Assembly (NCBI GenBank): GCA_947184155.2
Contig: CAMXCT020006468.1
Span: forward strand, 155,336-219,335
DNA: 64,000 bases
Direction: 5' to 3'
Origin: Cladocopium goreaui
Taxonomy: Eukaryota > Sar > Dinophyceae > Suessiales > Symbiodiniaceae
How positions within the stretch are numbered: position 1 is the stretch's first letter; the number at the start of each line of letters is the position of its first letter. A program made the translations under genes and the position numbers. Positions 22,740 to 62,220 of this stretch are shown here, in pieces. The notes beneath the pieces are model-generated. The model ran no database searches. It saw nothing but the letters and a program-made list of their open reading frames with translations, and was not told the DNA's origin.

Positions 22740-23452
22740 AGATGATGGAAACTCATGATTAAATGATGAGGTATATATGATTCATGGATTTAAATGTATA
22801 TTATACATGATATGATTCATATGTATACATACACAATAATGTATATATATATATAGATATACTCCATGAAATGGCATGTAGTGTGGAGAAACGATGATGA
22901 ACCAGTGAACAGAACGGGCTACAGTATGTACAGCCAATTTTCAGACAACGCCAAATGGGGATTGAAGCCAAGAAGAAATCGGACGTTGGCCAATCCTGCG
23001 GCTGCCTCCTGCAAGATGCAGGATTTGAGGGGGTTCCTAATTTTGGTGTACTTCAGGCAGATAATGCTTGCAATCCACCTCAAAAGGTTTAAACTTTCCT
23101 TGTAGCGTCTTGACAGTGAGCATCTTCAAAACTAGAGGCTGTGTTTTCTGCAAACTCTTCACTGATGCATTACACAATTATAATTATATTACACAAGCGA
23201 TTACCAGTACGCAACTAGAATGATTATACACAATTATACATTACTACATTCCATTATATTGTACTAAATCATATTACATAAATTACTAACTAAATAAATC
23301 GATAACAAACTAACTAACTAAATCATATTACTAAATAAATCTGTTATATAAATGATTTAGTTAGTATTACTAATTACTATATTACTAAATCATTTTAATT
23401 AGCTATAATATTTTAATATACCATATGATATTAATTAAAAAATATATATATA
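22740..23452. other. AT-rich non-coding stretch before the retroelement
   Basis: TATATA, ACTAACTAAATAAAT and related short repeats dominate from 22750 to 22860 and from 23160 to 23452. A short frame at 22866-23105 shows no recognisable feature. Confidence 0.6.
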
Positions 23453-23571
23453 TATGTATGCATCGTGTTTGGCAGGCACTGGGTGTGCATTATCATTAGG
23501 GTGAGTATGTAAGCTGATGAATCCATTTTGGCTCAAGTCTGAGCCAAACTGGCTTCATCGTTCTTTCTTTT
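23453..23571 (+). repeat. split direct repeat A1
   Basis: A 119-bp unit from TATGTATGCATCG to TTCTTTCTTTT, identical to 33047-33165. It contains a spliced-leader-like 15-mer and a 9-bp hairpin (TTTGGCTCA/TGAGCCAAA, loop AGTC). Confidence 0.93.
23523..23537 (+). other. dinoflagellate spliced-leader relic in repeat A1
   Basis: CCATTTTGGCTCAAG equals the last 15 nt of the conserved 22-nt dinoflagellate trans-spliced leader (recalled from the literature). The same 15-mer lies at 33117-33131 in A2. It forms the left arm of a hairpin with the inverted TGAGCCAAA just downstream. Confidence 0.75.
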
Positions 23572-23687
23572 GTTGGGGTACCCACACCACTTCTAGGGAG
23601 TTACCCTAGGTTCAGTGGTTTCTCGTTCCTCTACTAGGGCGCTACCCTAGAGTACAGAGGTTACGAAGGTGGGAGGTCACCCCCTCG

Positions 23688-24515
23688 ATGCCAAGGGCCT
23701 CCATCGTCGTTCGGCCCGGTTGGAATGAGGCGGCCCACACGGATGTGGAGCTGCTTCATGCGGCTGCCTACTACGAGTTCAAGACGCACGTGGAGAGCCT
23801 ACTCCAGCGGGGCTTGGTGGCAGAGGCCACCCGACTGTGGGCGTCCGTGTGCCAAATTGATCATTTCCCCCCACATCCAATTGGGTTGGGGGTGCAGGGA
23901 CTTCCCCCTTTCAGACGGTCACCTTGTATGGAAGAAAACTGTAGGAGGTGTACTGAGTATCAGGGAGGATTCAAGTTCCCTTGGATCGGCACATGGAACA
24001 GCTCAGCTGTCTTGGCTCTGCCCGGGAGTGACCCGCGGCGTGCGTGGCAATCCTACTATGATCGCCTGGGCGAGGCGAAGCTGGATTTGCTACTCATCGA
24101 GCCGCTGCGGACTCATTGGACGGCTCGGGACTTTGCGCCGGACAACATCTTTGGCTTGGTCGCCTTCATCGAGCACAATGCCGATAGCATGGTCGACCTC
24201 ACCGAACTTTGGGATGTGTGGAGGACCTGGCAATCCCCACAGCGTGGATGGAGGGACCCATCCTTGGTGCCCATCCCGGCTGACCTGGTTGCGTGGAGAG
24301 CACCACGGGCCAGAGCAGTCCGGTCGTTATGGGGTTGGCTTGGTGCCATGGAGGCTGGGGAGGAACCCTTGCCACCTTGCAATGCTTGTGGACTGCCGAC
24401 ACCTGAGCTCTGTGAGCGATGCTTCTCCTCCGTGTGCAGCACCTGTCCACCCTCCCAGTGTCCAGGATGTCACCCCGTCTTGCGTCGAGACCCATATGCA
24501 GCAGCTGCGGCCTAG
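23688..24515 (+). CDS. retroelement ORF 1: Cys-rich protein of unknown role
   Basis: A 275-residue frame beginning MPRASIVVRPGWNEAAH. This is the real frame here; the overlapping +1 frame that later encodes the recombinase has shadow-like composition until about 24450. A helical N-terminal half (ELLHAAAYYEFKTHVESLL) is followed by a Trp-rich middle. The C-terminal cluster CNACGLPTPELCERC, CSTC, CPGC can bind zinc. It overlaps the recombinase frame by tens of bases, so a +1 frameshift or re-initiation could link them. A nucleic-acid-binding Gag-like role is possible but unproven. Confidence 0.6.
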   Translation: MPRASIVVRPGWNEAAHTDVELLHAAAYYEFKTHVESLLQRGLVAEATRLWASVCQIDHFPPHPIGLGVQGLPPFRRSPCMEENCRRCTEYQGGFKFPWIGTWNSSAVLALPGSDPRRAWQSYYDRLGEAKLDLLLIEPLRTHWTARDFAPDNIFGLVAFIEHNADSMVDLTELWDVWRTWQSPQRGWRDPSLVPIPADLVAWRAPRARAVRSLWGWLGAMEAGEEPLPPCNACGLPTPELCERCFSSVCSTCPPSQCPGCHPVLRRDPYAAAAA

Positions 24516-27477
24516 TGATGTTTGTTTGTCACCTGATGATATTGAGGTTTGGTCTGCAGTTTCAGGCCCAGCCCGTACGCTCCAAACCTTGGCAGCGGTG
24601 GTGTCAGGCGTCGCCATGGCGTACCACCCAGGTGCCTACGCGGTGCAGGCTGCTGGTGAGGCTCCACCTTGTGCAGAGACGGCGATGGAGAGGGTGGCAT
24701 CCACTCGTGTTGACCAGTGGCGAGCTCAATGGGGACTACATGATGAGACTGACTTCGCATATGCGTTTGCCTCCTATGACAGCGCAGTTGCACATGGAGG
24801 ACACCATGTGGCAGACGCGTGGTTGCAAGCGCGATCCAAGACTGCCGAAGCTGACCTCATCCCTCAAGCGGCTGCCGTGGCTGAGAGCTCGGGTTCCAGA
24901 GATCGGCCAACGACATGGCCTGCGCCCAAGGCGTCCATGATGAAGAAGAGCAAGATGGTCCAAGCTCTTCGAGTCAGGCCAGGCCCAGACCAACCAGAGA
25001 CGGTGCTGCTACGAGCTGCGGCATTGAGGAAGGCCTTTTCTCAGGCCAAGGTCATGCGTCCTCAAGGGGAGTTGACCCCGGAGAGGTACGCTCAGTGGCA
25101 GGATGCTCTGGATACTTTGTCTAAGCGGAAGGTCACAGAGGCCGAAGGAGCGACGGTGGTGAACGCCCTGAAGTCTTGGGCTGAGTTGCGGGCCTACATG
25201 GAGCAGAAGGACCGCTTGTTCCCACCGGATGCATTGGACCTCTATGGCTTCTTGCAGAATGGCACGTCGGGGCCTTACCGAGCCTTTCACTCCTTGAAGT
25301 GGTTCTCCAAACATGGTCGGTTGCAATGGGACTTCAGTGATGTACCAGTCCCAGCTCGTAAGAATCCACCCAAACAGGCAAACCCAGAACAGGCTGTTGC
25401 AGTTGAGCCCCCAATGATTGCAGCGCTTGAAGAGAAGATTCAATCGTTGTATGAAGCAGGGGACCCGCGTTGGAGGGGCTTACTGTCCAGCTGGCTGGTT
25501 ACCTTTGGTGTCCTGCGATACCAGCACATCATGCGTGCCAGGCCAGTCAAAGTGACCCCTAGCTCCTTTCATGGCTACTGCACGAAGGGGAAGCAGAAGG
25601 CCAACAGGGGCGGGTTCTCCTTCAGCATTCCGGCCACATTCGTCAACGGATGGGCTTGGGGCTCGGCCCTATTCAGGGACTACAGCAGTCTGGATAAGGC
25701 TAAGCAAGCAACCTCAGGGTTGTGCTTTGATGCGGAGGGCACCGCATACACATTGAAGTTCGTCAACGAGCTCAATCGTGAGGTCTTTGAGCACTTGGTC
25801 CAGAATACAGAGGATTTGTCTTCCTACTCCTGGCGGCGAGCAGCACCTACAGTGGGCACTCTGATGAAGCTGACGCCTCTCGAGCTATGCTCATTGGGGG
25901 ACTGGGCAGATCGTTCCCAGATCCCAAAGGAGGCGACAATGCCTATGCACTACAGTGCAGCTAGGTACGAGTCTTCATTGAGGACCAAACACATTGTGCG
26001 GCTGGCTATGGAGAAGCTGCTTGCCCATGAGTCATGGGAGACCATCCCAACGGAGACCTACGCTGAGGCCCTGGAGTATGCGCGCCAGAACGTAGACAAG
26101 GTGCTGAAGCAGGAATCCAGGGTCATTTGGGCAGCTCCTTTGACGAAGGCTGAGATGCAGGCGCGCTTCCAGCTGTCGGAGGCGCTCAAGCTCAAGGCCG
26201 CGGCCAAGCGAGAAGAGGCACAATCCAAGGGTGGCCTGTCTGCGATGCCGGCATCTCTCAATGGGAAGGTGCTGAGCGCATTCATGAAGAATGGGGCACC
26301 CATTTGTGGAGCTTTTCAGACAAGGTCTTGCCCCCTGGAGAAGGAAGTGTGCCCTGGTCGCCATGCATGCGCCATTCTGCGCAAAGCTGGACGAGTTTGC
26401 GGTGGAGGCCATCCGGCATGTGAATGCCACGACAAGAAGTTCATCAAGGTGGAGGAGATGACTGGCGAAGGGCCTGGTTCGGGATCTGCTAAGGCCAAGC
26501 CTACTAGCAAATCCACGGAGGAGCGACCTCCGGAGCCAGCTGCCCCTCCTAAGGCGTCAGTGAGGCGCCCACGGTCCCCACAAGGGCCGCCGTCTAAGGC
26601 ACCGCCAGCGAAGAAGGCCAAAGCAGCCCCAGCTCCACCTCCTGCGCCATTACCAGCCCTGGTGACTAGTTCGGAAGAAGAAGAAGTCGAAGTTGAGGAG
26701 GAGGACCTTCCGATTCCAGAGGCACTGGATACTCGAGGGCCCGACCAGAAGTTCGACAGGTTGGCGACAGTCCACGGCAAGACAGCGGAGAGCCCGAGCC
26801 TTATTTATCAGAATAGGGCAGGGGGCAAGCTGTGGCTGAGTGGAATTCCAACCAGGAACACGGCAAACCGCTTTCCAAAGGGAGTTACCCTTCAGATTGC
26901 GTGCATGGCCGAAGCCCCATCATCCAGAGGAGGAGTGGTGCTCACAGATGCCCTATTGAAACACTTGTGTGTGGCCCATGGCGGTTGGAGGAACAGGGAC
27001 TTTGAAGAAGTCTGGCCTTTGCTGCGCAATACGATGTATGCAGGCGAGTCGGCCTTGATCCATTGCCTATCAGGGCGCCACCGAGCAGGTGTTGGGGGCT
27101 GTGTGTTCCGTGCGCTGCTAGCCCAGGAGAGCTGGGATGTTGCAGTGGCCTACGTGAAGAGCTGCAGGCGCTCGTTGGACATTCCGGGGATCATCAATGA
27201 AACGGGTATGAGGTCGTGGGTAGACACGACTCTCAGGACCAGCTCCCTCAGGAACCCGTTCCCAGAGCCCTGCGGCTACATTGCGACACTGCGTTCAAAG
27301 GTTCATTTGGAGCTCAACAACGGCCAGACCCTCTGCTCCCACAAGCAATCTGCCGAGCGTGCAATCCGCTTGGTGAAGCCAATGACGACGCAGGACATGA
27401 GGGAGGCCATGGCTTGGGGCCGCGCTTTTTGTGACGGTTGTTTGGTGCGAGCAGCAGCGAGCTGGCATCCACGCTGA
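24456..27477 (+). CDS. retroelement ORF 2: tyrosine recombinase + C3H-like zinc module + phosphatase-like domain
   Basis: The frame is open from 23725 but looks coding only from about 24450. A plausible internal start is the ATG at 24616 in GTCGCCATGGCG. Counting residues from 23725: Arg598 in TFGVLRYQHI, Lys621 in YCTKGKQK, Arg704 in SYSWRRAAPT (usual His replaced by Tyr), Trp727 in LGDWAD, and Tyr743 or Tyr748 in MPMHYSAARY. This is the R-K-(H/Y)xxR-W-Y set of tyrosine recombinases. Residues about 861-905 hold ICGAFQTRSCPLEKEVC, GRHAC and CGGGHPACEC. A Pro/Lys/Glu linker follows. Then a dual-specificity-phosphatase-like region: KLWLSGIPT, then ALIHCLSGRHRAG with Cys1114 and Arg1120 (CX5R), then VAYVKSCRRSLD. 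A Cys-containing tail ends at 27477. The phosphatase's role is unknown. Confidence 0.8.
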
Positions 27478-27900
27478 CCTTGTCAGGAGTGGCGCACCAG
27501 AATTCATTTGAATAAGAGACGCACAGGGCCGATTTTGGTAAGCTGATCAATGTGGTCCATAGCTTGCCCGTAGGCTAACATGCATTTGAACCATTTGAGA
27601 GTTTGACTTCTGCGTGGAAAAAGGCCCTCTCAACATCCGGGAGGATGAAGTCATGATAGGCTGTGATAACTAGTCTTACCGGTATGTCATGAGGTAGCTT
27701 ACACAGGTATCTGTGAGGACAAGCTACATGATGTGTGCCGGGGATAGAGACTAGGATGCAGTCTGTCGTACCCCTGAGGAACAGGGGAGTTCTTGTCTTA
27801 CCCCCCCCGTCACCTCCTTCTGTCCCTGGATGGCAGGTGATGTGCAGCATGCGGGAGGCATGTTTGGGGGTGAGCAGCTTTGAATGTTCAAGTCATACAA
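27478..27900. other. intergenic spacer of the retroelement
   Basis: Between the recombinase stop and the Gag-like start. The Gag frame is formally open from 27735, but similarity of composition to the rest begins near the ATG at 27918. C-runs (CCCCCCCGTC) occur at 27802-27812. Confidence 0.5.
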
Positions 27901-27917
27901 GGAGTTACCTTGAGAAA

Positions 27918-29124
27918 ATGACTAGTATTCGATTGGTTCCGGTGGAGAGTACCACCATTCAGGAAACCATGGAGTCTTTAGGGCTGAATTTTTCGTTGGA
28001 CCCCGTTGTGACCAAGGCGTTGTTGGCCACCAAGATTCAGAACTTGGAGGAGTTTCGGTTCCTCTTTGAGGATGAGTCGAAAGTCGACACGTTCTTGGCC
28101 AAGTTGCAACTCGGTGATGATAGGTTGATTCAAGGCTCTAGGTTGCGCAGAGCTTGGACTGCCGTGACTCTGTACTACAAGAACCAGGACCAGGATAGGT
28201 CCAAGATCAGTGTCAGCGATCTTGATACCATGTTGGCTGACACAGAGTTGCGTGATGTCAAATCCAACTTCTGGGTTCGGTATCGGATGAGATTCCCACC
28301 AGAGATTCATCCAGCCGATGCCACGCTCTCTCGCATCAGCAGGGAGCTCTCCAAGCGGATGCTGTGTGTTTATAATTTGTGGAAAGTTCGCACTTTGCAG
28401 TACCAGCTCCACACGACTCAGAAGAAGAGGAAGCTGGCAGAAGGGCTCTACACCGAAGAGGCTGAGGACGAGGACAGGATCCCTCATGACTGGGAGAACT
28501 ATCTGGATCGTCTTCTTACTTTGCTGGTCGCATATGCCATGGCGGGAGTGACCCCCAGGGCTAATGTGCGGGATGCCTCGGCGGAAAAGACCCTTGGCGC
28601 TGACTCGACAACCTTTGTGGAGGTGCCGCTGGACGTGGTCATGCAATATTTCTACAGAGCGAAGCGTCAGTCCAGTGCACTGCCGTTGTCACAGAGGTTG
28701 GCTTGGCTCGAAGCCCGTGACCTTGAGGATCGTTCCGATTGGGTGGCCAAGTTTCGGGAATCATCCAAGTCCTTGGGGGAGGTCATCAAGGAGACCAGTG
28801 TGGCACGTGATGCCCATTGGGTACCACATGCGGTGCCCGGGGCTCCCAAGGCAGAGGCGAGCAAGCCCACCACAGTAGCTGCGACAGCAGTCCAGCCACC
28901 ATCCCAGTTTGCGTTGGGCAAGCCGGTTAGTGGCAAGAAGGTGGCCAAGGTGATGCGCGATGGCTCCAAGATTTGTCAGGCTTTCCAACATGGACAGTGC
29001 AAGAACCCCAAAAGCTCCTTCCCCCCAAGGCCAGCACAAGTGTGGCATCGTGGTTCGTGGTGAACGCATTTGTGGTATGCCGGGGCATGGAGCTATCCAA
29101 TGTCGGGCGAAGATTTCGCCATGA
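27918..29124 (+). CDS. retroelement ORF 3: Gag-like protein with a frame break in its zinc module
   Basis: The likely start is the ATG at 27918 (MTSIRLVPVESTT); an in-frame upstream ATG lies at 27735. The protein is helical and charged (KALLATKIQNLEEFRFLF, LSRISRELSKRMLCVYNLW, KKRKLAEGLYTEEAEDED). Its C-terminus carries KICQAFQHGQC. In the original frame it then runs into WHRGSW and stops at 29063. In the +1 frame the expected remainder appears (GQHKCGIVVRGERICG, then GHGAIQC) up to a TGA at 29122. So a shift at the C-run 29021-29026, or a sequence error, splits a C3H-like module. That module matches the one in the recombinase ORF (same Cys/His spacing, GRxCG core). A capsid/nucleic-acid-binding role is inferred. 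Confidence 0.65.
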
Positions 29125-30459
29125 CGGGGCCCAGCGGGAGAGGCGGGCACTTCTGCTGGGCAGGATGAGGCAAGACCCGTAGACAGAGTTGACTGTCAGC
29201 TGCCACGGATGGCGGACCTTTATGCGAGGCTTTATGCGGGGCCTAATACACCACTGTCCAAAGCCTTTATCTTTTGTGGTTGGGAGACCATTTCAGTGGA
29301 TTGGATGTTGGATAGGAGTCATGACCTATCCAACAGCCTCAGGCAGCAATCGCTGCATGAGCAGTTGCAGTCCGTGTGCTTCATCGCAGCAGCTTTGGAT
29401 TGCTCCACCAAGAGCCGCGCGAGGGAAATTCCGCGGGATTTTGGTGATGGGCGCCCACCACCCCGACCGTTGCGGTCTGAGCAGCACCCGCTGGGTCTAC
29501 CTGAGTTGACAGGTTCTCAGCAGACAAGGGTGGAGCAGGATAATGCGGCTGCGAGCTTTGTACTGTCTGAGATTGATCAGTTGGTGGACAGGGGTGGTGG
29601 CTCAGTCCGCGAGAACCCATACAACAGCCTCCATTGGTGGACACCGGATGAGGTGGCGATGTGGGAGAGCGGTCGCTGGTCTGACCAGCGGTATTCAGCC
29701 TGCTGTTTTGGTGGTGCGAGATCGAAGCTGCAGCGGTTGCGCCACAACATTGCAGAGATCGCTCAATGGCCTCGAGCTGACTGCAACCATTTCCATGACC
29801 CCCAGGAATGGGAACCTTGGGTCCAGAATGGTAAGCGCCACTTCCCTTCAGCTGAGGAATCCGAGTATACAGCAGAGCTCTGTTTTGCGATTGCCACGGC
29901 AGTTTCGTGGTGGGCAGTGCGTGTCGGACACGCCAAGCTCTATGTGCCGAGGTCCCCGTCGCCGAGTTGTACGGGGCATCGGGATCATTGGCTTGACCTC
30001 GATCCCAGAGCACTTCGGGAGTGGGCTATGACCCCACTGGCCATCAGCCTGGGTTTGAGGCCTTTGGACACAGCTGAAGCGGCTAGGGTGCCCACGAGAG
30101 CATGTGTCGAAGATGTTTTGCAACAGGGCGCACTTCCCCCCGGTCACGTGTATGTGGGGCTTGGCAGTCATAACCACCGCCTATCGACCACCAAGTGGAA
30201 GTCTCCATGGCAGGTGGGCGTGAATTGCACCCCTCAAGACTGGGTTCCCTATTACGTCCAGTACATCAGGGAGACACTCTGGTGCGAGTTGGATGAGCTC
30301 GAGGGAGCAGTGCTGGTCTGTGATTGCCCCGCAGCCCAAACTTGTGAGGCCGACCTCCTGGCCGGGTTGATTTTTGATCGCTTGAGTGAGCAGGGCCAGC
30401 GGAGTGCCCCACAGGTGGTCCAAGGTCATTCTGGCAGGGGTCACCAGGGAGTTACCTGA
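29125..30459 (+). CDS. retroelement ORF 4: cytosine-methyltransferase-like + DUF4326-like protein
   Basis: Open from the TGA at 29122, first ATG at 29209. Counting from there: FIFCGWETISVDWM (motif I/II-like), a degenerate motif IV at Cys65 (DCSTKSRAREIP instead of the usual PC), ENP at 135-137 within RENPYNSLHWW (motif VI-like), then FGGARSKLQRLRHN and a Cys-His segment typical of phage-type C5 methyltransferases. From about residue 314, VYVGLGSHNHR, TKWKSPWQVG, YYVQYIRETL and VLVCDCPAAQTCEADLLAGL follow the pattern of the DUF4326 family. Dinoflagellate retrotransposons are known to have captured DNA methyltransferases (de Mendoza and colleagues, 2018). Activity of this degenerate version is uncertain. 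Confidence 0.65.
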   Translation, partial: RGPAGEAGTSAGQDEARPVDRVDCQLPRMADLYARLYAGPNTPLSKAFIFCGWETISVDWMLDRSHDLSNSLRQQSLHEQLQSVCFIAAALDCSTKSRAREIPRDFGDGRPPPRPLRSEQHPLGLPELTGSQQTRVEQDNAAASFVLSEIDQLVDRGGGSVRENPYNSLHWWTPDEVAMWESGRWSDQRYSACCFGGARSKLQRLRHNIAEIAQWPRADCNHFHDPQEWEPWVQNGKRHFPSAEESEYTAELCFAIATAVSWWAVRVGHAKLYVPRSPSPSCTGHRDHWLDLDPRALREWAMTPLAISLGLRPLDTAEAARVPTRACVEDVLQQGALPPGHVYVGLGSHNHRLSTTKWKSPWQVGVNCTPQDWVPYYVQYIRETLWCELDELEGAVLVCDCPAAQTCEADLLAGLIFDRLSEQGQRSAPQVVQGHSGRGHQGVT

Positions 30460-32793
30460 TGTGTCCTCTTGTCAAGTGTAGCGCAGGCTACAGGCATCCC
30501 CTTCGGGCCATTTTACATTCTGCAGGGGTCCTTGGCGTTAGCGTTCAAGAAGCTGTACCCAGGCGAGTGGTTCGAGGGAGTTGCCATCCCCTTTGTGGAG
30601 GACTTAGTGAACCAGCACCCACTTGACCTGTTTGTGCGATGGCGCCACCAACAAGGGCTGGACATGGAGGGCAGCTGTAACCCGGTGTTGGCAGCCCCTT
30701 CAGTGCGGCAGAAGATGAGGACGGCAGAAGGGCAGCAGGTGGGAGCGATCAACCACAGAGCGGCGCTGGCCCCCCTTCTGCCCTTTCACCTTCAGCCAGA
30801 CCAGCACTTTGAGCAAGCCCTTCAGCTCAGCATGCAACAGTTGCCTACTGAAGGGCTTCCCATGTTGGATGAGGATCTGAGGTTTGCTGCATCTTTCTCT
30901 AGCCTGCCAGGAGTTGACCTGCGCAGGTTGCGAGAGCGCGCCATGGGCATCCTATCTGAGATGAAGAGACGGTGGAGCTCGATCACGGCCCATTTGAGAC
31001 GCAAACAGACTGAGGCCATCAGGACGGCAACAATGCAGCGTGACATCGGCTTCACTGCAATTCTACTTCTTGTAGCCAATTGGGGTGACGTGACACTGCC
31101 AGCAGGCCTGTGTATGGGGCTTCCTGCAGTGGGTTACGCGCCACCATATGGCATTTTTCCTGAACAGGTTGCCACACGTTTGACAAGAGAGGAGGTACTC
31201 CAGGACTGGCAGAGCCACAACCAGACCATTTTGGCTCGGCTCAAGCCAGGTGCCGATGATGAGTTTTTGTTGCAGCAAAGCCTTAAAGATGCTGAGAAGG
31301 GTTTTTGTGGGTCGCCCATGACTGCAGAGGAACTGCAGCGTTGTCTGGGTGCGGAACCCTACCGATTGATCCCGCGGTGCGTCATCACACAATCCTCGGG
31401 GAAGCAACGAGTGATTGACGACGCCTATGTTGGCTTGCAATCTGAGCGTTCCAGTGATGCAAACAAGCTCACCCTCTGCTCAGCGTTGCGACCGGCCCAA
31501 CACCTGCAGTATGCCTACGCCTTTGGGAGGTCACCCAACTGGGAGGCAGAAGAATGGGAGTCGGGAGGTGAGGATTGGCCGGACGCCTATCGTTTTTGCC
31601 CTATGAGTTGGGATGAGGCCTTATGCTGCATTGTGGCTTTCTTCCATCATGAATGGCAACAACCAGCGTTTATGATTTATACAGGTTTGCTATTTGGTCT
31701 TCCTCTTGCGGTCACATCATTCAATCGATACAGTCGTTTTGTGGAGGCTTTATCACGTCGATTTGCCTTTTGTTTGACCAGTCTGTATTTTGATGATGCT
31801 CACTTGACAGACCGCAAATCGTGCCGGGGATCAGGTCAGAGAGCTTTGCAGACTCTCAACACCCTTTTGGGTACACCATTTTCCGAGGAGAAATGTCAGA
31901 AGATGCAGAGTACCGGCACATTTTTGGGCCTGGATCATGACTTCAGTCAAGTCCATTTGAAGGGTCTGGTTCAGTTTTGGGCCCGTGAACGCATCGAGAC
32001 CAAGCTGCTTCATCTCATGCAAACTGCCGAGGAATCCGGCAAACTGCAACCAGGGGTGGCAGCCAAGCTCTACGGTATCGCCAACTTCTTTGAGCTTGGC
32101 GTGTGGGGGCGTATTGGCTGCGGTGGCTTGGCCCCAATCAAGCACAGACAGCAGGAGCGCTCTTCAGAGTTAACTGAGGAGTTGCGCCAGAGCTTTGACC
32201 TGCTACGCACTGTCATCACCACCCGTCCCTCTCGCCACATTGAGATCTGGCCACATGCAGGGCTCCGCTTCCTCGCTGCTTCGGATGCTGCGTTGGAGAG
32301 CCCAGGTCAGGGGACTGGGGGCTTTTTGGTGGTGTGGCATGACGATCACAGGCAACGTAGGGAAGCATTTGTTTCTCTCATTCCCCCATTGGTGTACAGC
32401 CTATGGGAGCCTGGTGACAAGAAGATTGCCCAGTTAGAGCTGCTGCAAGTGCTCTATGCCTTGTTTTCTCGGCCGGCCAGATTTCGAGGCCGACGAGGGC
32501 TCTGGTTCATCGATAACACGGCAGCGTTGATGGCATTGATCCGAGGTCGTTCTGACAATGCGGATTTAGAGCATATGTCACGGTTGATCCATATTACTCT
32601 TTTTGGTCTTAAGGCTTGGTTTTTCTGGGAGTGGATCCCTAGCAAGGCCAACTGGTCTGATGAGATCAGCCGTGAAGGCCTCCAGGCAACATGGCACAAA
32701 CGCCATGGGTTCACCACGCATTTTGCATTTTTCCCCTTCGAGATTTGGTCTCTACCACTTCCCGCGTTTCTTCGGGTTGTGGAGTTTCTCTGA
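30460..32793 (+). CDS. retroelement ORF 5: reverse transcriptase-RNase H
   Basis: In the same frame as ORF 4 and separated from it by a single TGA (30457-30459). The open frame starts at 30460, with a TTG at 30469 and no nearby ATG. Counting from 30469: RVIDDAYVGL, motif A-like EDWPDAYRFCPM (Asp372), motif B-like FGLPLAVTSFNRYSRF, motif C LYFDDAHLTD (440-443). The RNase H part has ASDAALESPGQGTGGF, an acidic LELLQVLYAL helix, FIDNTAALMALIRG and WIPSKANWSDEISREG, so the four acidic residues are all visible. It stops at 32791-32793, just before repeat B1. This is the DIRS-type RT with adjoining RNase H. Lack of an ATG suggests readthrough from ORF 4. Confidence 0.85.
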   Translation, partial: CVLLSSVAQATGIPFGPFYILQGSLALAFKKLYPGEWFEGVAIPFVEDLVNQHPLDLFVRWRHQQGLDMEGSCNPVLAAPSVRQKMRTAEGQQVGAINHRAALAPLLPFHLQPDQHFEQALQLSMQQLPTEGLPMLDEDLRFAASFSSLPGVDLRRLRERAMGILSEMKRRWSSITAHLRRKQTEAIRTATMQRDIGFTAILLLVANWGDVTLPAGLCMGLPAVGYAPPYGIFPEQVATRLTREEVLQDWQSHNQTILARLKPGADDEFLLQQSLKDAEKGFCGSPMTAEELQRCLGAEPYRLIPRCVITQSSGKQRVIDDAYVGLQSERSSDANKLTLCSALRPAQHLQYAYAFGRSPNWEAEEWESGGEDWPDAYRFCPMSWDEALCCIVAFFHHEWQQPAFMIYTGLLFGLPLAVTSFNRYSRFVEALSRRFAFCLTSLYFDDAHLTDRKSCRGSGQRALQTLNTLLGTPFSEEKCQKMQSTGTFLGLDHDFSQVHLKGLVQFWARERIETKLLHLMQTAEESGKLQPGVAAKLYGIANFFELGVWGRIGCGGLAPIKHRQQERSSELTEELRQSFDLLRTVITTRPSRHIEIWPHAGLRFLAASDAALESPGQGTGGFLVVWHDDHRQRREAFVSLIPPLVYSLWEPGDKKIAQLELLQVLYALFSRPARFRGRRGLWFIDNTAALMALIRGRSDNADLEHMSRLIHITLFGLKAWFFWEWIPSKANWSDEISREGLQATWHKRHGFTTHFAFFPFEIWSLPLPAFLRVVEFL

Positions 32794-32815
32794 GTGCTTT
32801 GGGATGAAGTGCATT

Positions 32816-33049
32816 GGGAGAGATTCAACCTGTGTAGCCTCCTGAGTTTACAGGAGCGCGGAACAGGGTGTACGGATCCAACCAGTGCTGCTGTGCAGGA
32901 GACTACCTGCACAGCGTTCCAAAGCACTATCCTGCGAGGAGCAGGTTGAGACCGCACGAAGAGTTTGGGAAGAAAAAGCCATGCGGATGTGAGCCTGGAC
33001 ACAGTGAACCGTTTAAGTGTATATGCTTTACATCTCACAACTAATGTAT
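32816..33049 (+). repeat. split direct repeat B1
   Basis: A 234-bp unit from GGGAGAGATTCAACC to CAACTAATGTAT. It matches 33280-33513 except for one base (GAAAAAGCC versus GAAAAAACC). It overlaps A2 by 3 nt at the TGTATGTATG junction. Confidence 0.93.
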
Positions 33050-33165
33050 GTATGCATCGTGTTTGGCAGGCACTGGGTGTGCATTATCATTAGGGTGAGT
33101 ATGTAAGCTGATGAATCCATTTTGGCTCAAGTCTGAGCCAAACTGGCTTCATCGTTCTTTCTTTT
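33047..33165 (+). repeat. split direct repeat A2
   Basis: Identical 119-bp copy of A1, including the spliced-leader 15-mer (33117-33131) and its hairpin. Confidence 0.93.
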
Positions 33166-33279
33166 CCCTCCCTTCCCTCCCTATGAGGTAGGACTCCGGT
33201 GGAGTATCCTCCCTTGTAGGGGATCACATCATTGAGGATGCTGATGTCTACGTGGAGTCCCACGACTGTAGCACTGGGC
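33166..33279. other. spacer between A2 and B2
   Basis: A 114-bp pyrimidine-rich then mixed segment (CCCTCCCTTCCCTCCC at the left) that is not repeated elsewhere in the element. The region downstream of A1 (TGTTGGGGTACCC) is different. Confidence 0.7.
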
Positions 33280-33513
33280 GGGAGAGATTCAACCTGTGTA
33301 GCCTCCTGAGTTTACAGGAGCGCGGAACAGGGTGTACGGATCCAACCAGTGCTGCTGTGCAGGAGACTACCTGCACAGCGTTCCAAAGCACTATCCTGCG
33401 AGGAGCAGGTTGAGACCGCACGAAGAGTTTGGGAAGAAAAAACCATGCGGATGTGAGCCTGGACACAGTGAACCGTTTAAGTGTATATGCTTTACATCTC
33501 ACAACTAATGTAT
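33280..33513 (+). repeat. split direct repeat B2, right end of the element
   Basis: A 234-bp copy of B1 ending CTAATGTAT and running directly into a (TA)n tract that is the flank. Confidence 0.93.
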
Positions 33514-33537
33514 ATATATATAATAGTTACTATATTA

Positions 33538-33882: not shown

Positions 33883-34335
33883 TCAGCCACTCAGCCACTC
33901 AGCCACTCTGGCAGAGCCACTCAGCCACTCAGCCACTCTGAGTGACTGAGTGGCTGAGTGGCTGCTCCAGCCACTCTGGCAGAGTGACTGAGTGGCTGAG
34001 TGGCTGCTCCAGCCACTCTGGCAGAGTGACTGAGTGGCTGAGTGGCTGCTCCAGCCACTCTGGCAGAGTGGCTGAGTGGCTGAGTGGTCTGGCAGAGTAA
34101 CTGAGTGGCTGAGTGGCTGCTCCTCCAGCCACTCCGGCAGAGTGGCTGAGTGTCTGAGTGGCTGCTCCTCCAGCCTCTCCGGCAGAGTGGCTGAGTGGCT
34201 GAGTGGCTGCGTCGGCCACTCTGGCAGAGTGGCTGAGTGGCTGAGTGGCTGCTCCAGCCACTCTGGCAGAGTGGCTGAGTGGCTGCATCAGCCACTCTGG
34301 CACAGCGGCTGAGTGGCTGAGTGGCTGCGGCAGAG
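33883..34335. repeat. minisatellite with tRNA A-box-like unit, left block
   Basis: About ten units of roughly 36-48 bp with core GAGTGGCTGAGTGGCTG, separated by CCAGCCACTCTGGCAGAGTG, itself a hairpin (CCACTCT/AGAGTGG). GGCAGAGTGGCTGAGTGG closely resembles the 5' part of tRNA-Leu/Ser, including the A-box TGGCTGAGTGG. Reading frames across it encode only Ala-Thr-Gln-Pro-Leu-Ser repeats. Confidence 0.85.
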
Positions 34336-37570: not shown

Positions 37571-37715
37571 CCAGCCACTCAGCCACTCAGCCGCTCAGAG
37601 TGGCTGAGTGGCTGAGTGGCTGCGTCAGCCGCTCTAACAGAGTGGCTGAGTGGCTGAGTGGCTGGTCCAGCCTCTCTGGCAGAGTGGCTGAGTGGCTGAG
37701 TGGCTGCTTCGATTT
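37571..37715. repeat. minisatellite with tRNA A-box-like unit, right block
   Basis: Three units of the same GAGTGGCTGAGTGGCTG minisatellite as at 33883, here with GCGTCAGCCGCTCTAACAGA and GGTCCAGCCTCTCTGGCAGA spacers. It matches the left block on the other side of the viral-type island. Confidence 0.85.
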
Positions 37716-38124: not shown

Positions 38125-38352
38125 TGGTAGGCGGAGCTTAGGTTCTGATACCCAGCTGTGAATGTGTAGGTGTCGACGCCGAGCTGTCTCTGCTCTGGCG
38201 CGCTCACCTCGTGCCAACTGGAAAAGGTTGACACTCAAGCTCCTGAAAATCAGGAAAATCCAAAGGTACTTCCATAATCTGGGAGTGCATCTCCAACAGT
38301 ATCCAAGGGTTCTCTTGAATCAGGTCTCAAAGCACCTGAAGAACGACTAAGG

Positions 38353-40288
38353 ATGGCTCAGCAACAGCAGCCACCTCAGCAACCAGGCACTCCACCAGCA
38401 CCAGCACAAGGACAGACCAACGGTCCCAACATGTCCCAGATGGTTATGCAGATGATGGCCCAATTGACTCAGGGTCAGGCGCAGTTGAATCAGGCAATGA
38501 CCGAGGCTATGAACCAGCAGCTACAGATCAACAGAAATGTTGAGAGGTCTGTTGAGTACAAAGACAGATCAGAGTTGAAAGGCATACCCAAACCTGATAA
38601 GTTCACTGGAGCATCAGGCACTTGGGATAGTTGGTGGTACAAGTTTAAGACTTGGGTTGAAAGTTGCCACAAGAATGCTGTGAAGATTGTGGCACAAGTT
38701 GAATCTCAGTGTGACAAAGAGATCACTGAGTCAGGTCTAGAAGTAGACTTTGATGAAGGCGCCGAGCTTGTTTCAGCTCAGGCTCGACAAGCCCTCATAT
38801 CATTGACTGAGGGAGAAGCGTTGGAAATTGTCAAGAACACATCTCGTGGTAGCCACTTTGGCCTAGAAGCCATGAGACGACTGTTGTGCAAATATGATCC
38901 TCAAAATCCTCAAGCTAATTCAGCCTTGTTGAAAAAGGTTCTGCATCCAAGTCAATGCAGTCTTGATAAGCTTCGAGAAGGGCTTGAGAGTTGGGAGAAC
39001 TTGAAAAGAAAGTATGAAGACAGGAGGAAGAAACCACTTGAAGACGACATCTGCAGGAGTTGTCTGCAGCAAATGTGTCCCAACAAGCTGCAAGATCATT
39101 TGGGACTTGCAGGCTTCGAGATTGACCACGTATGACCAGGTGAAAGCTGAAGTTTTGGCCTATCTCGAGAATGTCGAGACCAGGAAAGAAGCAAAATCAG
39201 GAGCCGTTCCCATGGATGTGGATTCCCTTGCTAAGGGTAAGGGAAAAGGAAAACATGACAAAGGGAAAGGCAAAGGTAAGTCCAAAGGTAAAGACAAAGG
39301 AAAGAGTCAGTCTTCGTCTTGGTCAAACAATTCATACCACAAGGGTTCTTGGAACAATCAGTCTTGGAATCAGCAGTCTTGGTATAAACAAAACACCAAT
39401 GACTCCAAGAGCAAAGGGAAAGGCAAGAAAGGTCAAGACAAAGGTAAAGGTACAGGTGATCAAGGTAAAGGTCGCAAAGTTGCCAATGTTGAGTCTGATA
39501 CTTGGGCTCTAGAGCAACCTGCAGCAACTGCCACTGGTGATCAACCTGAACCTGAACTCACAGCGCTGTTTACCTTGGAAGACGCTATGCCGCCTAAGTC
39601 TGAAGCTCAAGAGGAATCACCTCGTCGTGGTCGAAGTCCAAGGAGAGCTACACTCCAAGCACCTTCAAGGAGCACTGTGACCAGGAGCGCTATGGTGATG
39701 GCTCAGAGTGCTTTGGCATCAGCTTCTGGGTCCAACAAGGAGCTTTTCAGTAAGATGATTGCTCAGGCTGAGAGCGCTGTCAAAGATGCTCAGGACAAAG
39801 GGCTCCAAGCAAATCAGGCCCTTAAGGAACGCCAAGAAACCCTGGACAAGTTGAAGAAAGAGGCAGCCCAGCATCAGAAAGAGGCCAAAGAGGCAATGGC
39901 CAAAGTGAGGGCAGAAGGCTGTGCCGCTTCAGCACCGGTTGCACCCTCTCGTCGGTTGCAAGCCGACCTAGATGCTGGAGTACATGCAAGAGCTGCCAAG
40001 AAAGCAGAAAAGAGTAGGAAGAGAGCTGCTAGTCATCGAGCAGCCACTGCACAAGAGAGAACAGCTAGCTTCAAGAACTATGAGCTGGCAACCCATGGAC
40101 AAGCCAAACCTGACAAGTGGGACCAGGAGGACATTGGAGATCTTCCTGAACCTCCCAAGGCAAGAAAGTTGGAACCCAAGCGCCATAGAGGAGGACATCA
40201 CAGGTCTGAAAGACGAAGGGCAGATGAAGCTAGAAAGAAGGCCAACGAGGACAAGATGAAGGAGATGAGCAAAGAAGGAATCCCATAA
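38353..40288 (+). pseudogene. copia Gag region (frame break near 39115)
   Basis: ATG 38353 starts a Gln/Pro-rich leader (MAQQQQPPQQPGT), then a Gag-like helical domain with the typical GIPKPDKFTG and WDSWWYKFKTWV segments, running to 39135. From about 39115 the sequence continues one frame over (TYDQVKAEVLAYLENVETRK) into Gly-Lys repeats (KGKGKHDKGKGKGKS), a Ser/Trp/Asn stretch and an alanine-rich coiled coil, to a TAA at 40286. There is no CCHC knuckle; the Gly-Lys tract probably binds nucleic acid, as in other dinoflagellate copia Gags. It would form the particle shell. Confidence 0.85.
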
Positions 40289-41377
40289 TGGATTCATGAC
40301 AAGTTCGAGATTTCCTTTGAAGAAACCACTGATGAGTGTGAATTTGCCAACAGACTTGAGAAGCTGAAGACCGATCCTGAAGTTCTCAGCAGGTTGGACA
40401 ACGTCTTGAAGGAGGCCTATGAGAAGGTTTATGGTGAAATTCCAACATCTGAAGAGGCTGAATCAGATGAATTACCATACAATCAGGAACCTGCACCAGG
40501 CATGGAAGACGTAGTTCATCATTGGGAGACTTCCTCTCGAGAGCTCATGTCATTCAAGGAGTTGCACGAGAAGTCCAAAACTGTTTCCAACAAAGGACAT
40601 CCCTATGTGAAGTGCCAGGCATGTGGAAAGGCACTGAACTCCATGAGTCTTGCAAGCTTTTGGCAACATGTGGAGAGCAAGAATTGCTATCCTCAACACG
40701 CCCTGGAGTTTCGGAAGAAAGAACACTTTCAAGCAAAGGCTGAAAGAGAAGCAAAGGCTGAAGGGGAAGCATCCAAGAAGCGCCCCATTGATGATGCAGA
40801 AGCCAAAGATGAGAAAAAGCGCCAAGAGATTGCTAAGGATGAAGAAAAGAAGAAGCGCAAGCAGCACTTTGAGGAGCACTATGGGCGCTTCAGGCACCAG
40901 GGTAAAGATGATTTGAAGCCTGAAGTGAAGAAGATCCCCAAGAGGCCAGAGGAGAAAGAGAAGGAGAGATCAGAGAAGGAGGATGACAAGTCACCCAGCA
41001 GGGCACCAATTGAGCTGAAGTCCATATCCCCATCGAGAGCGCCTCAGGACAGCCGGGCTGATTCAGCCCAGGCGTCCAAGGCCAAGGGGAAAATCAGCAC
41101 AGGTGCCAAGAGATTCTTGGAAAAGGCAGTGCGTGAAGCTGCCAACTTTACGGAAAGAAAAGTCAGGAAAGAAAAGTCAGGAAGAAGAAGGAGAAGTCAC
41201 CATCTCCCAAGCTCAGGGAGCATTCACCAGGAGGAGGAGTTCGATCAGATTCCAACCTCGACTTCCTGGGAAGTTTGGCATCTCCGGTGGATACCATTGT
41301 TTAGGCCACCGTTGACTCAGGGGCTGCAACCAGTTGCCTACCCAAGGAGATGGCACAGTCTTTGGAGTTGGCTATGA
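40289..41377 (+). pseudogene. copia linker between Gag and protease, in frame with Gag after one stop
   Basis: Directly after the TAA at 40286 the same frame goes on (FEISFEETTDECEFANRLEK) and is open to 41377. It encodes a segment with CQACGKALNSMSLASFWQH (CxxC...H, possible zinc site) and a Lys/Glu-rich coiled coil. The last part shifts frame before the protease. Role unknown. Confidence 0.7.
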
Positions 41378-41694
41378 CGCCTGTGGACGAGAAGCCGTTT
41401 ACCAATGCATCAGGACAACCAGTCCAGGTGCACGGCATATGCAACCCCATGGTGACAATGGGTGAGAAAGGAGGCCCACAAGTCAAAGGTGTGGGACAGT
41501 TCCGGGCAATGGATGTGGCAAAGCCATTGCTATCTGTGTCCAAGCTGGTTGAGAAAGGCTGGACAGTGACCTTCGGCCCCAAAGGATCGTTCCTGCAAAG
41601 AGGAGCCAAGAAGGTACCAATCACAATGACTGGAGGAGTCTTCATAGTAGCCATGGATTTTCATGGGCAGCCCATAGAAGGGTTGAAGGCGTAA
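41311..41694 (+). pseudogene. copia aspartic protease domain
   Basis: The frame reads VDSGAATSCLPKEMAQSLEL from 41311, with DSG as the retroviral-type aspartic protease active site. It continues MDVAKPLLSVSKLVEKGWTV and PITMTGGVFIVAMDF. It would cleave the polyprotein. A TAG lies just upstream in this frame (41302), and the preceding coding is in another frame. Confidence 0.8.
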
Positions 41695-41699
41695 GTCCT

Positions 41700-44600
41700 G
41701 TGGAAACCGCAGAGAGCACAGGTAGTGGAGATGATGAACCGGGCAGTAGTAAGCTAGGTTCTCAAGCACTACCAACTGCAGCAGCGCCGACGCAGAGAGA
41801 AAAAGAAGAACATTTTGTCAGCCATTATCCTTTTAGGAGTTGGTGTGAACATTGCATTCGAGGTAAAGCAAAGGCAATGAGACATGTCAAAGTAGATCAT
41901 TCAGATGAAACAGTTCCTGTGATCTCAGCTGACTATTGTTTCATGAATTCAGTGGATGACACTGTCATCACAGAGGAAGTGCAGAAAAAGCATGCACCAG
42001 TTTTGATAGTACATGATCGGTGGTCCAAGTTGACCTACGCACACGCTTTGCCGTACAAGGGAGTTACCCAAGGTCCTATTGGATCTAAGTGTCTTTTGAA
42101 TGACCTTAAGAAGTTTGGGTACCCCAAGATGGTCATGAGATATGACCCAGAGCCGGCACTCAACTCCGTAGTTGAGGCAGCCAAGAATGGTTTTGACAAA
42201 CAGTTGGTTTTGGAAAAAGTTCCCAAAGGAGTCTCAGAATCCAAAGGGGAAATTGAAAGAGCAGTTCAAGCTATTGAATCTCAATCCAGGACACTCAGAA
42301 GTGCCTTGGAGACAAGCTATGGAAGAAAGGTGCCAGACGACCACCCAGTTTTGACATGGTTGGTTGAACATGCTAGCACCACTTACAATTTGTTTCACAG
42401 ATCATTGGAAGTCAAAGATGGGAAGACACCGTACTCTAGACACCGTGGTCATGAGTGGAAAGTGTCATTACCACCGTTTGGGGAAACAATTGAATTCCTC
42501 AAAAGAGGTCACAAGTTTGAACAAAGATGGCACCAAGGAGTTTTCTTGGGAGCCAAAGACAATACCACTGAAAAGATAGTGGGGAATGCATCAGGTGTTT
42601 TCACTGTGCAAAGCATTCGACGCAAGAGTGCGGACGACAGATATGATGTCGAAACGTTGATGTCAGTCACTGGGGTTCCTTGGGATCCCCAGGCATCAAA
42701 AAGAGATGACATTTTGCTTCCTCAGATTGTTGAGGGAGATCAGCAGCCACTGGCGCCATCAGTGCCAGTTGAGCCACCAAAGAAGTCGACAAGACGACTT
42801 TACATCACCAAACGTGATTTGGACAAGTATGGCTACACCGCCGGTTGTGTCGCCTGTGATGCCACTAGAATTGGCAAAAGAGGCACTGGAGTTCATCACA
42901 CTCCTGCCTGCAGAGAAAGGATGGAACGTCTGCTTCAAGCAGAAGAGGGCAACCTGAGAGTAGCCCAACATACAGCCAAGGTTGATTCTGAAATCACTGG
43001 TCAGAAACTGGAAGTGTCCGAAGAAGGCACCCAGATCCTTTATGGATATTCAAGTGAGAGACCACAAGGAGTCCCTCAAGGTTTCAAGGTGTTTGCACGC
43101 CTTGACAAGAATGCAAGGTATCTCAAGGGTACTATGCCAGAAGGTCCCAACTGGGATAACGTCTGGTGGAGAGTCACCAGAGAGTTCAAGACAGGAGACA
43201 TGATTAAGTCTGAACCAATAGATCCTAACTTAGGAGAAGACGTCATCAACGCACCGTTGATTGATGACACAGGTATCGTTACCGAGCTGTGGTATTCTGC
43301 CACAGGGGAATCAGCGCCAAGTTTGCCAACTACTGGACCTGATGTAGTACAAGCTTCTACAGCCGGTCCAATGCAGAGACCAGCTGTACAAGATCCTACT
43401 GCAACTGGAGTAGGAGCTAGTGTAAGCTCAGCCTCAGCCAAGAGGGCAGGAGGCGAACAAGAAGAAAGGTCACGCAAGAGGTTGGAAATGTCACCAACCA
43501 AAGGTCAGAAAAGACCTGCAGACTCAGGAGGCGAAACGTCAAAACCCAAAGACAGCCGAGCTGCTTCAGCTCAGGCGTCTAAGGGCACCAAGCGGCCACC
43601 TGAGAATGAGAGACCAGATGACATGGATGATATAGACCAATGTCTTATGAACCTGATCATGGAAGATCGGGAGAGGTATCTTCAGTCCATTGAAGGTGAA
43701 GAAGAACCAGTTTGTGAAGAGACAATTCCTCTTCCACCGGAGTTGGAAGATGAAGCAGCTACATGGTATTATTATGATGATATCAGTGGAAAGATTTTAG
43801 ACAGCAAAGGTGTAGAACAAGCCAGAAAAGATGAGGTCGAAATCATTGAAAGTTTTCCAGTTTGGGAAAAGATTCCCAGACACAAGATGCCCAAAGGGGT
43901 ACGCACCATTGGAACACGATGGGTAGATGTCAACAAGCAGGATGAAGAGAATCCACTTTATAGAAGTAGGTTAGTAGCTCAAGAAGTCAAGAAGGGCTCA
44001 GGTTTTGATGAGTTCTTCGCAGCCATGCCCAGTTTGTCTGCTTTGAAGATGCTAGTTACAATAGCCGTGACGTTTCAGTTGCCAGACGCTGGAAAAGCTG
44101 TCAAGGAAGCCTATCGCAAGCGTAGACTTCTAGGATTCCTGGATGTGAAACGCGCTCACTTTTATTCAGATGCGACGCGCGAGATTTACGTGGAGCTTCC
44201 TGCAGAAGCAAAGAAGCCTGGAGAAGATGTGGTAGGAAGATTGCTCAAGTCATTGTATGGAACCAGAGATGCACCTCTCAACTGGGAGTTGCAGATACAG
44301 AAGGTCATGTTGGCCTTAGGTTTCAAGCAAGGAAAAAGCAATCCATGCATATACTACCATGCAGGCCGAGACCTCAGAACTGTTGTACATGGAGATGATT
44401 TTACAACAGCAGGAACATTTGACAACATCAAATGGCTTCATGAAGAGCTGTCAAAGAAGTGGAAATGTGTGGAACGTGGTATTTTAGGACCACCAGGAAC
44501 ACCAAACACCATCCAGGACATCAGAGTCCTGAACAGAATTATCACATGGAAGGAGAATGGAATTTGGTGGGAACCAGATGCACGTCACGCAGAGTTGGTG

Positions 44601-45074
44601 ATTGATTTACTCGGAGATGGTCCCCGAGGAGCCAAAGTCAAGACACCACTTGCCAAAGGATCAGTGGAAGATCTTAAGGATGCCGCTGTTTTTCTCAACG
44701 ATGAAGAAGCAACCCAGTATAGATCAGTTGCAATGCGAGCAGCTTATTTGGCACAAGACCGACCAGATCTGCAAGTAGCAACAAGATCTTTAGCACAAGG
44801 GCTACAACGACCAACTACCAGCCACATGCTTATGCTCAAAAGAGTTGCACGATACCTCAGGTATCGACCACGCATGGCACAATTCTTTCCTCATCAGAAC
44901 AAACTCAGTCCATTTGTGATGTGGTCTGATGCTGACCACGCTGGATGCGTGAAGACGAGGAAGAGCGTGTCAGGAGGCGTCTTGATGGCCGGTGGTTGTT
45001 GTATCAAGACTTATTCCAAGGACAAGGAGTTGTTAGTCTTTCGTCTGGAGAGAGTGAGTATTACGCTCTTGTGA
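41700..45074 (+). CDS. copia integrase-reverse transcriptase, start of RNase H
   Basis: A 1124-residue open frame. His38, His42, Cys49 and Cys52 (SHYPFRSWCEHC) form the zinc-binding head of integrase. Catalytic acids lie in VISADYCFMN, MRYDPEPALNS and SESKGEIERAV. RT has LDVKRAHFYSD, LKSLYGTRDAPLNWE and VHGDDFTTAG (Asp899, Asp900; HGDD instead of the common YVDD). RNase H starts with VMWSDADHAGCVKTRKSVSG. Near 45030 the frame leaves the RNase H sequence and stops at 45074. Length and order fit copia Pol apart from this end. Confidence 0.92.
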   Translation: METAESTGSGDDEPGSSKLGSQALPTAAAPTQREKEEHFVSHYPFRSWCEHCIRGKAKAMRHVKVDHSDETVPVISADYCFMNSVDDTVITEEVQKKHAPVLIVHDRWSKLTYAHALPYKGVTQGPIGSKCLLNDLKKFGYPKMVMRYDPEPALNSVVEAAKNGFDKQLVLEKVPKGVSESKGEIERAVQAIESQSRTLRSALETSYGRKVPDDHPVLTWLVEHASTTYNLFHRSLEVKDGKTPYSRHRGHEWKVSLPPFGETIEFLKRGHKFEQRWHQGVFLGAKDNTTEKIVGNASGVFTVQSIRRKSADDRYDVETLMSVTGVPWDPQASKRDDILLPQIVEGDQQPLAPSVPVEPPKKSTRRLYITKRDLDKYGYTAGCVACDATRIGKRGTGVHHTPACRERMERLLQAEEGNLRVAQHTAKVDSEITGQKLEVSEEGTQILYGYSSERPQGVPQGFKVFARLDKNARYLKGTMPEGPNWDNVWWRVTREFKTGDMIKSEPIDPNLGEDVINAPLIDDTGIVTELWYSATGESAPSLPTTGPDVVQASTAGPMQRPAVQDPTATGVGASVSSASAKRAGGEQEERSRKRLEMSPTKGQKRPADSGGETSKPKDSRAASAQASKGTKRPPENERPDDMDDIDQCLMNLIMEDRERYLQSIEGEEEPVCEETIPLPPELEDEAATWYYYDDISGKILDSKGVEQARKDEVEIIESFPVWEKIPRHKMPKGVRTIGTRWVDVNKQDEENPLYRSRLVAQEVKKGSGFDEFFAAMPSLSALKMLVTIAVTFQLPDAGKAVKEAYRKRRLLGFLDVKRAHFYSDATREIYVELPAEAKKPGEDVVGRLLKSLYGTRDAPLNWELQIQKVMLALGFKQGKSNPCIYYHAGRDLRTVVHGDDFTTAGTFDNIKWLHEELSKKWKCVERGILGPPGTPNTIQDIRVLNRIITWKENGIWWEPDARHAELVIDLLGDGPRGAKVKTPLAKGSVEDLKDAAVFLNDEEATQYRSVAMRAAYLAQDRPDLQVATRSLAQGLQRPTTSHMLMLKRVARYLRYRPRMAQFFPHQNKLSPFVMWSDADHAGCVKTRKSVSGGVLMAGGCCIKTYSKDKELLVFRLERVSITLL

Positions 45075-61235: not shown

Positions 61236-62220
61236 TTACCCATCTTTTATCATGTTTCATTTTCATTATCATTCACCATCTGTCATCTTCATATCTTCGT
61301 TTTCATGCTCTTCTGGTCACCTCCCTCCGTCGTTTAGTTTTCATTTCGCACAGTGTTCTGTCCGTCCACGCTCCTAGCTGACACAGCATGCTGTGGTGAA
61401 TTGCAGCCTTTGATACCATCAGTGCGCACGATGTTTCAGTAAAGATCTTACGTCGATTTCTTGCAGAGCACAGCTGCCCACACCACATTTAAAAAAAAAA
61501 CGTGCTGTGCCGTCTTGCTTTTGGGTTCTCTGGCCCACCTTGTTTCTGATATTTCAGAGCAGAATTCAGAAGTTATACATACTTAGACCATGTTATACCA
61601 CTGAGATAGTGACAACACAAGCAAATCAATGTTCCATTGTCTTTTGGTTAGCCACTTTTCTTTTCTGTTGGGGGTTGTCCATGGTGCGGGAAAGTACTGG
61701 CCGTTGCTCAGGTTGGAACCTGAGATTTCTCTAGCTTTTAGGTCCTCCTTTCATTCGAAGCTTGGCGCAGTCTATTCCCCGACGTCACGCGTTTTGGAGA
61801 TGGCAGTCAAAATGTGCCTTGACCACTGGAAAGGGATGGCCAGGGATGGCTTGGAAAACTGGATTTCCAGGTCCAAAATCGGTGAGCATCTCAATATGCC
61901 GGAGCAAAATTGTCTAAAGGGAGCCAATTTCTGCAATCAGTTTCTTTTTTTAATCCGAGCAACAACGCCGCTGGTCAAGTGACAAGATGAAAAGTAGTTG
62001 CAGGTGGATGTGAGTAGGGCAGAAGCAGCACTCAAACACAACTTCTGCTATTTTTGTCACTTTTATGCTCACAACAAAAGACCAGACAGCTCTATTGGAT
62101 CAGCATTGTGACGCTAAGTTGAGTGTGCCAAATCTAAGGCAACAGCGATTTCGGACATTTGTGAAGAGGAGACCTGATTCCCTTTGTTGGAGATATGGAC
62201 ATTGGCCATTCAACTGCATG
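61236..62220. other. no confident gene
   Basis: A plus-strand frame at 61629-61982 includes LGAVYSPTSRVLEMAVKMCL and CLDHWKGMARDGLENWI, which could be exonic, but no domain is recognised. Nothing else supportable. Confidence 0.35.

Follow-up and report, generated by a model that had tools for sequence, protein, structure and literature searches.

A 64,000-nucleotide stretch of the dinoflagellate Cladocopium goreaui (contig CAMXCT020006468.1, positions 155,336 to 219,335; hereafter the window, whose first letter is position 1) carries a split-direct-repeat retroelement at 23450-33517, and the first open reading frame (ORF1) of this element joins a putative tyrosine recombinase to a domain of about 175 residues with a CX5R loop. 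This domain belongs to the cysteine-based, dual-specificity phosphatase (DSP)-like fold superfamily, having both the HCX5R loop and the DSP fold, and its intact P-loop (H-C-x-x-G-R-H-R) is under purifying selection across related groups of the element. It lacks two residues that speed phosphate release, and we tentatively read it as a slow or single-turnover phosphate acceptor. In targeted searches of open-licence PubMed Central papers, we found no published description of a phosphatase-fold domain in such a retroelement.

Fold of the CX5R domain

A first-pass annotation, made from the letters of the window, had proposed a phosphatase-like CX5R domain in the same frame as a recombinase-like region, with motifs in the order and spacing of DSPs. 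This was borne out: the frame 23638-27477 contains KLWLSGIPT, ALIHCLSGRHRAG, and VAYVKSCRRSLD, and the Cys codon (TGC, 27064-27066) and the P-loop Arg codon (CGA, 27082-27084) stand in CX5R spacing. The Cys/Arg pair is real as well; its numbering, given as 1114/1120, becomes Cys817/Arg823 when counted from the likely start, the ATG at 24616. Searched alone, the window segment stayed below all cut-offs, both in Pfam (AMG1_II, E = 0.0052; Y_phosphatase3, E = 0.028; DSPc, E = 0.14) and in the PDB, where the best match was DUSP22 (E = 0.14). Family profiles placed DUSP22 at the top of the PDB each time, with E values of 0.0093 for 7 sequences, 8.5e-6 for 14, and 2.1e-6 for 29; the likeness to phosphatases, weak for the window sequence alone, is thus more than chance. 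Among the best 60 of the 113 PDB matches of the 29-sequence profile, 59 are named phosphatases, the other being 2m3v, an unnamed "putative uncharacterized protein." DSPc matches 22 of the 29 family members at E <= 1 (best E = 1.6e-5), with scores under the curated cut-off of 33.5 bits (PF00782): 12.4 and 13 bits for the window and 22.9 bits for the highest scorer seen (P0053). NCBIfam gave weak, mixed matches only, the best at E = 0.003.

An AlphaFold2 model from a 29-sequence, 175-residue alignment has the DSP fold, and the fold search agrees, as the annotation had anticipated. DUSP22, DUSP10, DUSP28, and PTPMT1 share this fold and the CX5R spacing, whereas identity to solved DSPs is about 13-18% in structural alignments (DUSP28 and PTPMT1) and their catalytic Asp and Ser/Thr are missing in the domain. 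The DSP fold is thus supported jointly by sequence, model, and selection. Two other candidate kinships were dropped. The C-terminal domain of RapZ shares a short G-[KR]-H-R motif, and PapZ_C hits four sequences of the 29-member family (E = 0.0023 at best). Compared as profiles, the family and E. coli RapZ reached a probability of 3.7% over 35 columns, a likeness confined to the motif. Pfam AMG1_II was set aside, with matches (E = 0.003-0.005) that fell below its cut-off and were confined to three sequences of the 7-member and three of the 29-member set.

Active-site residues and selection

Three protein searches returned 15, 31, and 54 matches, the two named organisms being Symbiodinium sp. 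CCMP2456 and Symbiodinium necroappetens; scans of viral and GTDB contigs recovered no relative. The active-site alignment comprises 104 rows from 97 proteins. Both catalytic columns are present in 62 of these rows, 60 of which keep Cys and Arg, and the two exceptions (P0026 and P0039) look decayed. Taken column by column, the catalytic Cys is found in 64/65 rows, the preceding His in 62/65, the Gly in 66/67, and the catalytic Arg in 62/64; two extra loop residues are conserved too, an Arg at +4 (64/66) and a His at +5 (60/64). One relative (P0015) is two residues short in the loop; the loops of P0019 and P0031 are longer by one and three residues, respectively, which show in the raw sequences and are masked in the profile columns.

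The same genome holds at least five related groups of the CX5R-domain retroelement and at least 152 matches to the domain (150 of 301 candidates scored). Cys and Arg are kept in all 82 loci retrieved (76 distinct places) and in 4 of 4 more, giving 86 loci at 80 places, which were found through similarity to the domain and are not a random sample. A genome search with the recombinase region gave at least 150 matches, 16 places of which, by eye, have no listed domain partner nearby; the domain was present at all four of these that were retrieved, once with a deletion before the P-loop. No domain-less element of the lineage was seen at these 4 of the 16 places, the other 12 being outside the sample. 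Codon comparisons used the 43 of 50 loci (L002-L051) that were selected for open frames of >600 residues, regrouped as A (28 copies), B (5), C (8), and D (2), with L034 and L038 assigned to group A by their recombinase region. All 43 have the HCX5R loop with Gly at Cys+3.

The residues expected to complete the active site behave differently. After the P-loop Arg, the alignment has Ala in 63 of 64 rows, Val in one, and Ser or Thr in none, and the 43 open copies have Ala (35) or, in group C, Gly (8). The acid position, assigned from the alignment and the secondary structure of the model as 29 residues before the Cys, holds Asp in 11 of 68 rows, His in 23, Ser in 20, and other residues in 14; it is His in the window, and in the open copies it differs between groups (His 33, Tyr 8, Val 2). 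This survey confirmed the predicted retention of the Cys/Arg pair among relatives but not that of the general acid. Because the Asp and the Ser/Thr are both absent, textbook DSP chemistry is not supported, and, as judged from these residues, a complete DSP is contradicted.

How strong is the constraint on the domain compared to that on the rest of ORF1? Ratios of nonsynonymous to synonymous divergence (dN/dS) for the domain and the recombinase region, from pairs that are pooled and not independent, were 0.102 and 0.034 in A-A, 0.015 and 0.045 in B-B, 0.083 and 0.064 in C-C, and 0.044 and 0.028 in D-D comparisons; those between the two closest groups (A-B, 0.025 and 0.052) are rough, as the proportion of synonymous differences (pS) in the domain is 0.58. 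The ranges are accordingly 0.015-0.102 for the domain and 0.028-0.064 for the recombinase region, and the constraint on the domain is about that on the recombinase region, weaker in A-A, C-C, and D-D and stronger in A-B and B-B. Between distant groups (A-C, 0.281; A-D, 0.279; C-D, 0.300), the domain ratio is uninformative, synonymous sites being nearly saturated. The domain DNA read in shifted frames gave 0.95-4.42 (grouping before L034 and L038 were moved to group A). P-loop codons vary synonymously, with five codons encoding the catalytic Arg among the 43 copies. The values far below 1 support the conservation that the annotation had expected from such a comparison.

The host element and its surroundings

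The element follows the plan A1-ORFs-B1-A2-B2 (Table 1), with repeat pairs 99% alike. ORF1 runs in the order recombinase-like region, CCCH zinc module, linker, CX5R domain, and C-terminal CHCC module, the last of which has the lowest or near-lowest dN/dS within ORF1 in several comparisons; the CCCH module is kept upstream of the domain even in the divergent relatives P0078 and P0079. The motifs of the recombinase-like region are those that we take to mark tyrosine recombinases. They were recognized by eye and are invariant in four of four aligned relatives, and profile searches of the PDB and Pfam with the region recovered no known recombinase, so the name is putative, resting on conserved residues and element context. 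The frame of ORF1 is open from stop to stop (23638-27477), and its 5' part overlaps an upstream ORF in another frame. That ORF, of about 300 amino acids with a Cys-rich C terminus (window 23610-24515; group C locus L064, 168-1061), looks conserved by eye between the window's group and group C. In group C (L064-L070 and similar loci), many copies have ORF1 interrupted at a shared place upstream of the P-loop, leaving a 184-amino-acid end piece, as though an already defective copy had been amplified.

Table 1. Features of the retroelement in the window
Feature	Position	Strand	Basis or remark
A1 repeat, left end of element	23450..23571	+	122 nt, 99% identity to A2
ORF1, 953 aa	24616..27477	+	Open frame; ATG matches starts of relatives P0011, P0014, P0015
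Tyrosine-recombinase-like region (GVLRY, KGKQ, YSWRR, LGDW, HY)	25408..26124	+	Conserved residues
CCCH-type zinc module	26245..26448	+	Cys/His pattern by eye; retained in most aligned relatives
DSP-fold CX5R domain	26743..27267 (model spans 26746-27270)	+	Profile, AlphaFold2, fold search, dN/dS
P-loop H-C-L-S-G-R-H-R, Cys817 and Arg823	27061..27084	+	H, C, G, R, H, R invariant in 43/43 open copies of genome
C-terminal CHCC module (CSHK ... CDGC), possible zinc ribbon	27268..27474	+	Conserved in relatives
ORF2 stop to stop, Gag candidate with second CCCH-like stretch	27732..29063	+	Open frame
Pol frame: DUF4326, reverse transcriptase, probable RNase H	29125..32793	+	Pfam matches; RNase H by eye alone
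DUF4326 domain, Pol frame, ahead of reverse transcriptase	30133..30363	+	E = 2.1e-5, 25.5 bits vs cut-off 25
B1 repeat	32816..33053	+	238 nt, 99% identity to B2
A2 repeat	33044..33165	+	Partner of A1
B2 repeat, right end of element	33280..33517	+	Partner of B1

ORF2 has no Pfam match at E <= 10, and a 400-amino-acid ORF of L064 is similar to it. Its CCCH-like module (~28960-29120), where the window frame seems disturbed, resembles that of ORF1, possibly through internal duplication. The reverse transcriptase of Pol matches RVT_1 at E = 6e-6 (26.5 bits, under the 29.6 cut-off), with a YFDD-like box seen by eye; the window copy has a single in-frame stop in Pol (30457-30459) although its repeats are 99% alike. 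The Pol of group C (L064, 5801-8500) likewise has a reverse transcriptase and DUF4326 (E = 2.9e-7, 31.5 bits), and C-D-C-P-x4-C-E-A-D is common to DUF4326 of the window and of this distant group. Nothing in the PDB matched the DUF4326 region by sequence. Iyer et al. (PMC9503650) count DUF4326 among the members of the rhodanese-phosphatase superfamily, so one retroelement has two phosphatase-superfamily domains, CX5R in ORF1 and DUF4326 in Pol.

Both A repeats hold a 20-bp inverted repeat (23516-23559 and 33110-33153; 18/20 paired, 4-nt loop), one arm of which is identical over 15 nt to what we take to be the 3' end of the dinoflagellate spliced leader, the other arm resembling it too. The spliced-leader relic of the annotation is thus matched in its letters, but since it lies inside an inverted-repeat arm, the palindrome may be a recombination site derived from the leader or else a relic. 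Elsewhere in the window lie a Copia-type element in several frames (38278-45074; RVT_2, E = 1.1e-19), a long 16-bp minisatellite in which frames stay open by chance (58729-61237), and a 42-bp satellite in two places (33940-34328 and 37596-37707).

A close precedent is SymbioDIRS-Dnmt3 (de Mendoza et al. 2018, PMC5890265), for which two ORF orders are reported. As described there, these too are tyrosine-recombinase retroelements of dinoflagellates; their repeats follow the order A-coding-B-A-B, and they have captured an enzyme domain that is under purifying selection. The captured enzyme is a DNA methyltransferase in Pol, whereas here the recombinase ORF contains a DSP-fold domain. Ngaro-like, PAT-like, and VIPER-like elements are described with split direct repeats (A1-[ORFs]-B1-A2-B2) and a reverse transcriptase (PMC6681497, PMC8547959); by comparison, the window element has its recombinase-like ORF first and adds the DSP-fold domain and DUF4326. 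The word "phosphatase" is absent from the main texts of all three papers.

Proposed phosphate acceptance and its alternatives

What would a phosphatase fold do without its release residues? By analogy with the PRL/PTP4A phosphatases, we lean, with less than even confidence, toward a slow or single-turnover phosphate-accepting domain. The intact P-loop would still accept phosphate on Cys817, and the phosphocysteine would probably be long-lived because both residues that speed its release, the Ser/Thr after the Arg and the acid Asp, are absent. Such a domain would act once or slowly, taking phosphate from, or clamping, a phosphorylated partner of the host or the element, while the zinc modules on either side might hold nucleic acid; the basic Arg-His of the loop suggests a highly anionic ligand. 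In human PRL phosphatases, Ala after the Arg is described as giving a long-lived phosphocysteine, stable for weeks if the Asp is also lost (PMC10040874, PMC12192612), and the element shares the CX5R loop followed by Ala (Gly in group C). It differs from PRL/PTP4A in that ORF1 of the window has no C-terminal prenylation motif (it ends ...AASWHPR), the acid Asp is mostly missing in the family, the loop residues are GRHR, and the best sequence match is DUSP22. A broader proposal, that a phosphocysteine-forming switch is fused to the recombinase and paired with DUF4326 in Pol, with removal of phosphate from a host defense signal, an ADP-ribose product, or a nucleic-acid end as part of the element's cycle, is unlikely at present.

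Plain phosphate binding is the main rival, next after slow or single phosphate acceptance, though we consider it somewhat unlikely. Here the P-loop would recognize a phosphorylated protein or nucleic-acid end and tether the recombinase complex with no phosphate transfer, which suits the missing Asp and Ser/Thr, the extra conserved Arg and His of the loop, and the zinc modules on both flanks. Pure binding does not require the Cys, however, and the Cys is nearly never lost (64/65 rows, 43/43 copies).

An ordinary multiple-turnover phosphatase acting on host signaling proteins, with another residue such as His in place of the Asp, is improbable. The DSP fold, the intact Cys and Arg, the His that 33 of the 43 copies have at the acid position, and the nearest solved relatives, which are protein phosphatases, would all fit it, but the change among His, Tyr, and Val between groups of one genome means that there is no single conserved substitute, and none of the 64 rows has Ser/Thr after the Arg. 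Similarly improbable is an end phosphatase for nucleic acids or nucleotides (RNA 5' ends, DNA ends, or ADP-ribose phosphates) in replication, integration, or counter-defense. Cysteine-class RNA triphosphatases may be able to do without the Asp, which would favor it, whereas those of the capping type carry a Thr after the P-loop Arg that this domain lacks. Neither capping enzymes nor PFA-DSPs are among the PDB-profile and fold-search matches listed, which proves nothing and excludes nothing, and the RNA 5'-end option to which the annotation was drawn gained no ground. The position of the domain beside zinc modules and a recombinase-like region would suit an end phosphatase, as would a possible partnership with DUF4326 of the same element, for which an action on the terminal phosphates of ADP-ribose has been proposed (PMC9503650). 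Finally, a chance CX5R motif or decayed passenger sequence, to which the single-sequence searches and a poor first model (7 sequences, 244 residues; predicted local distance difference test score, 49.6; predicted template modeling score, 0.38) might point, has a negligible probability and is already contradicted by the agreement of profile, model, and fold search and by dN/dS far below the shifted-frame values.

Enzymes captured by retroelements show which host functions a selfish element depends on or has to overcome. The presence of a cysteine-phosphatase fold, retained by selection in the recombinase ORF, and of a second phosphatase-superfamily domain in Pol suggests that some phosphate signal or phosphate end is important to this element, and the missing release residues make the prediction a sharp one: burst kinetics or a stable phosphocysteine.
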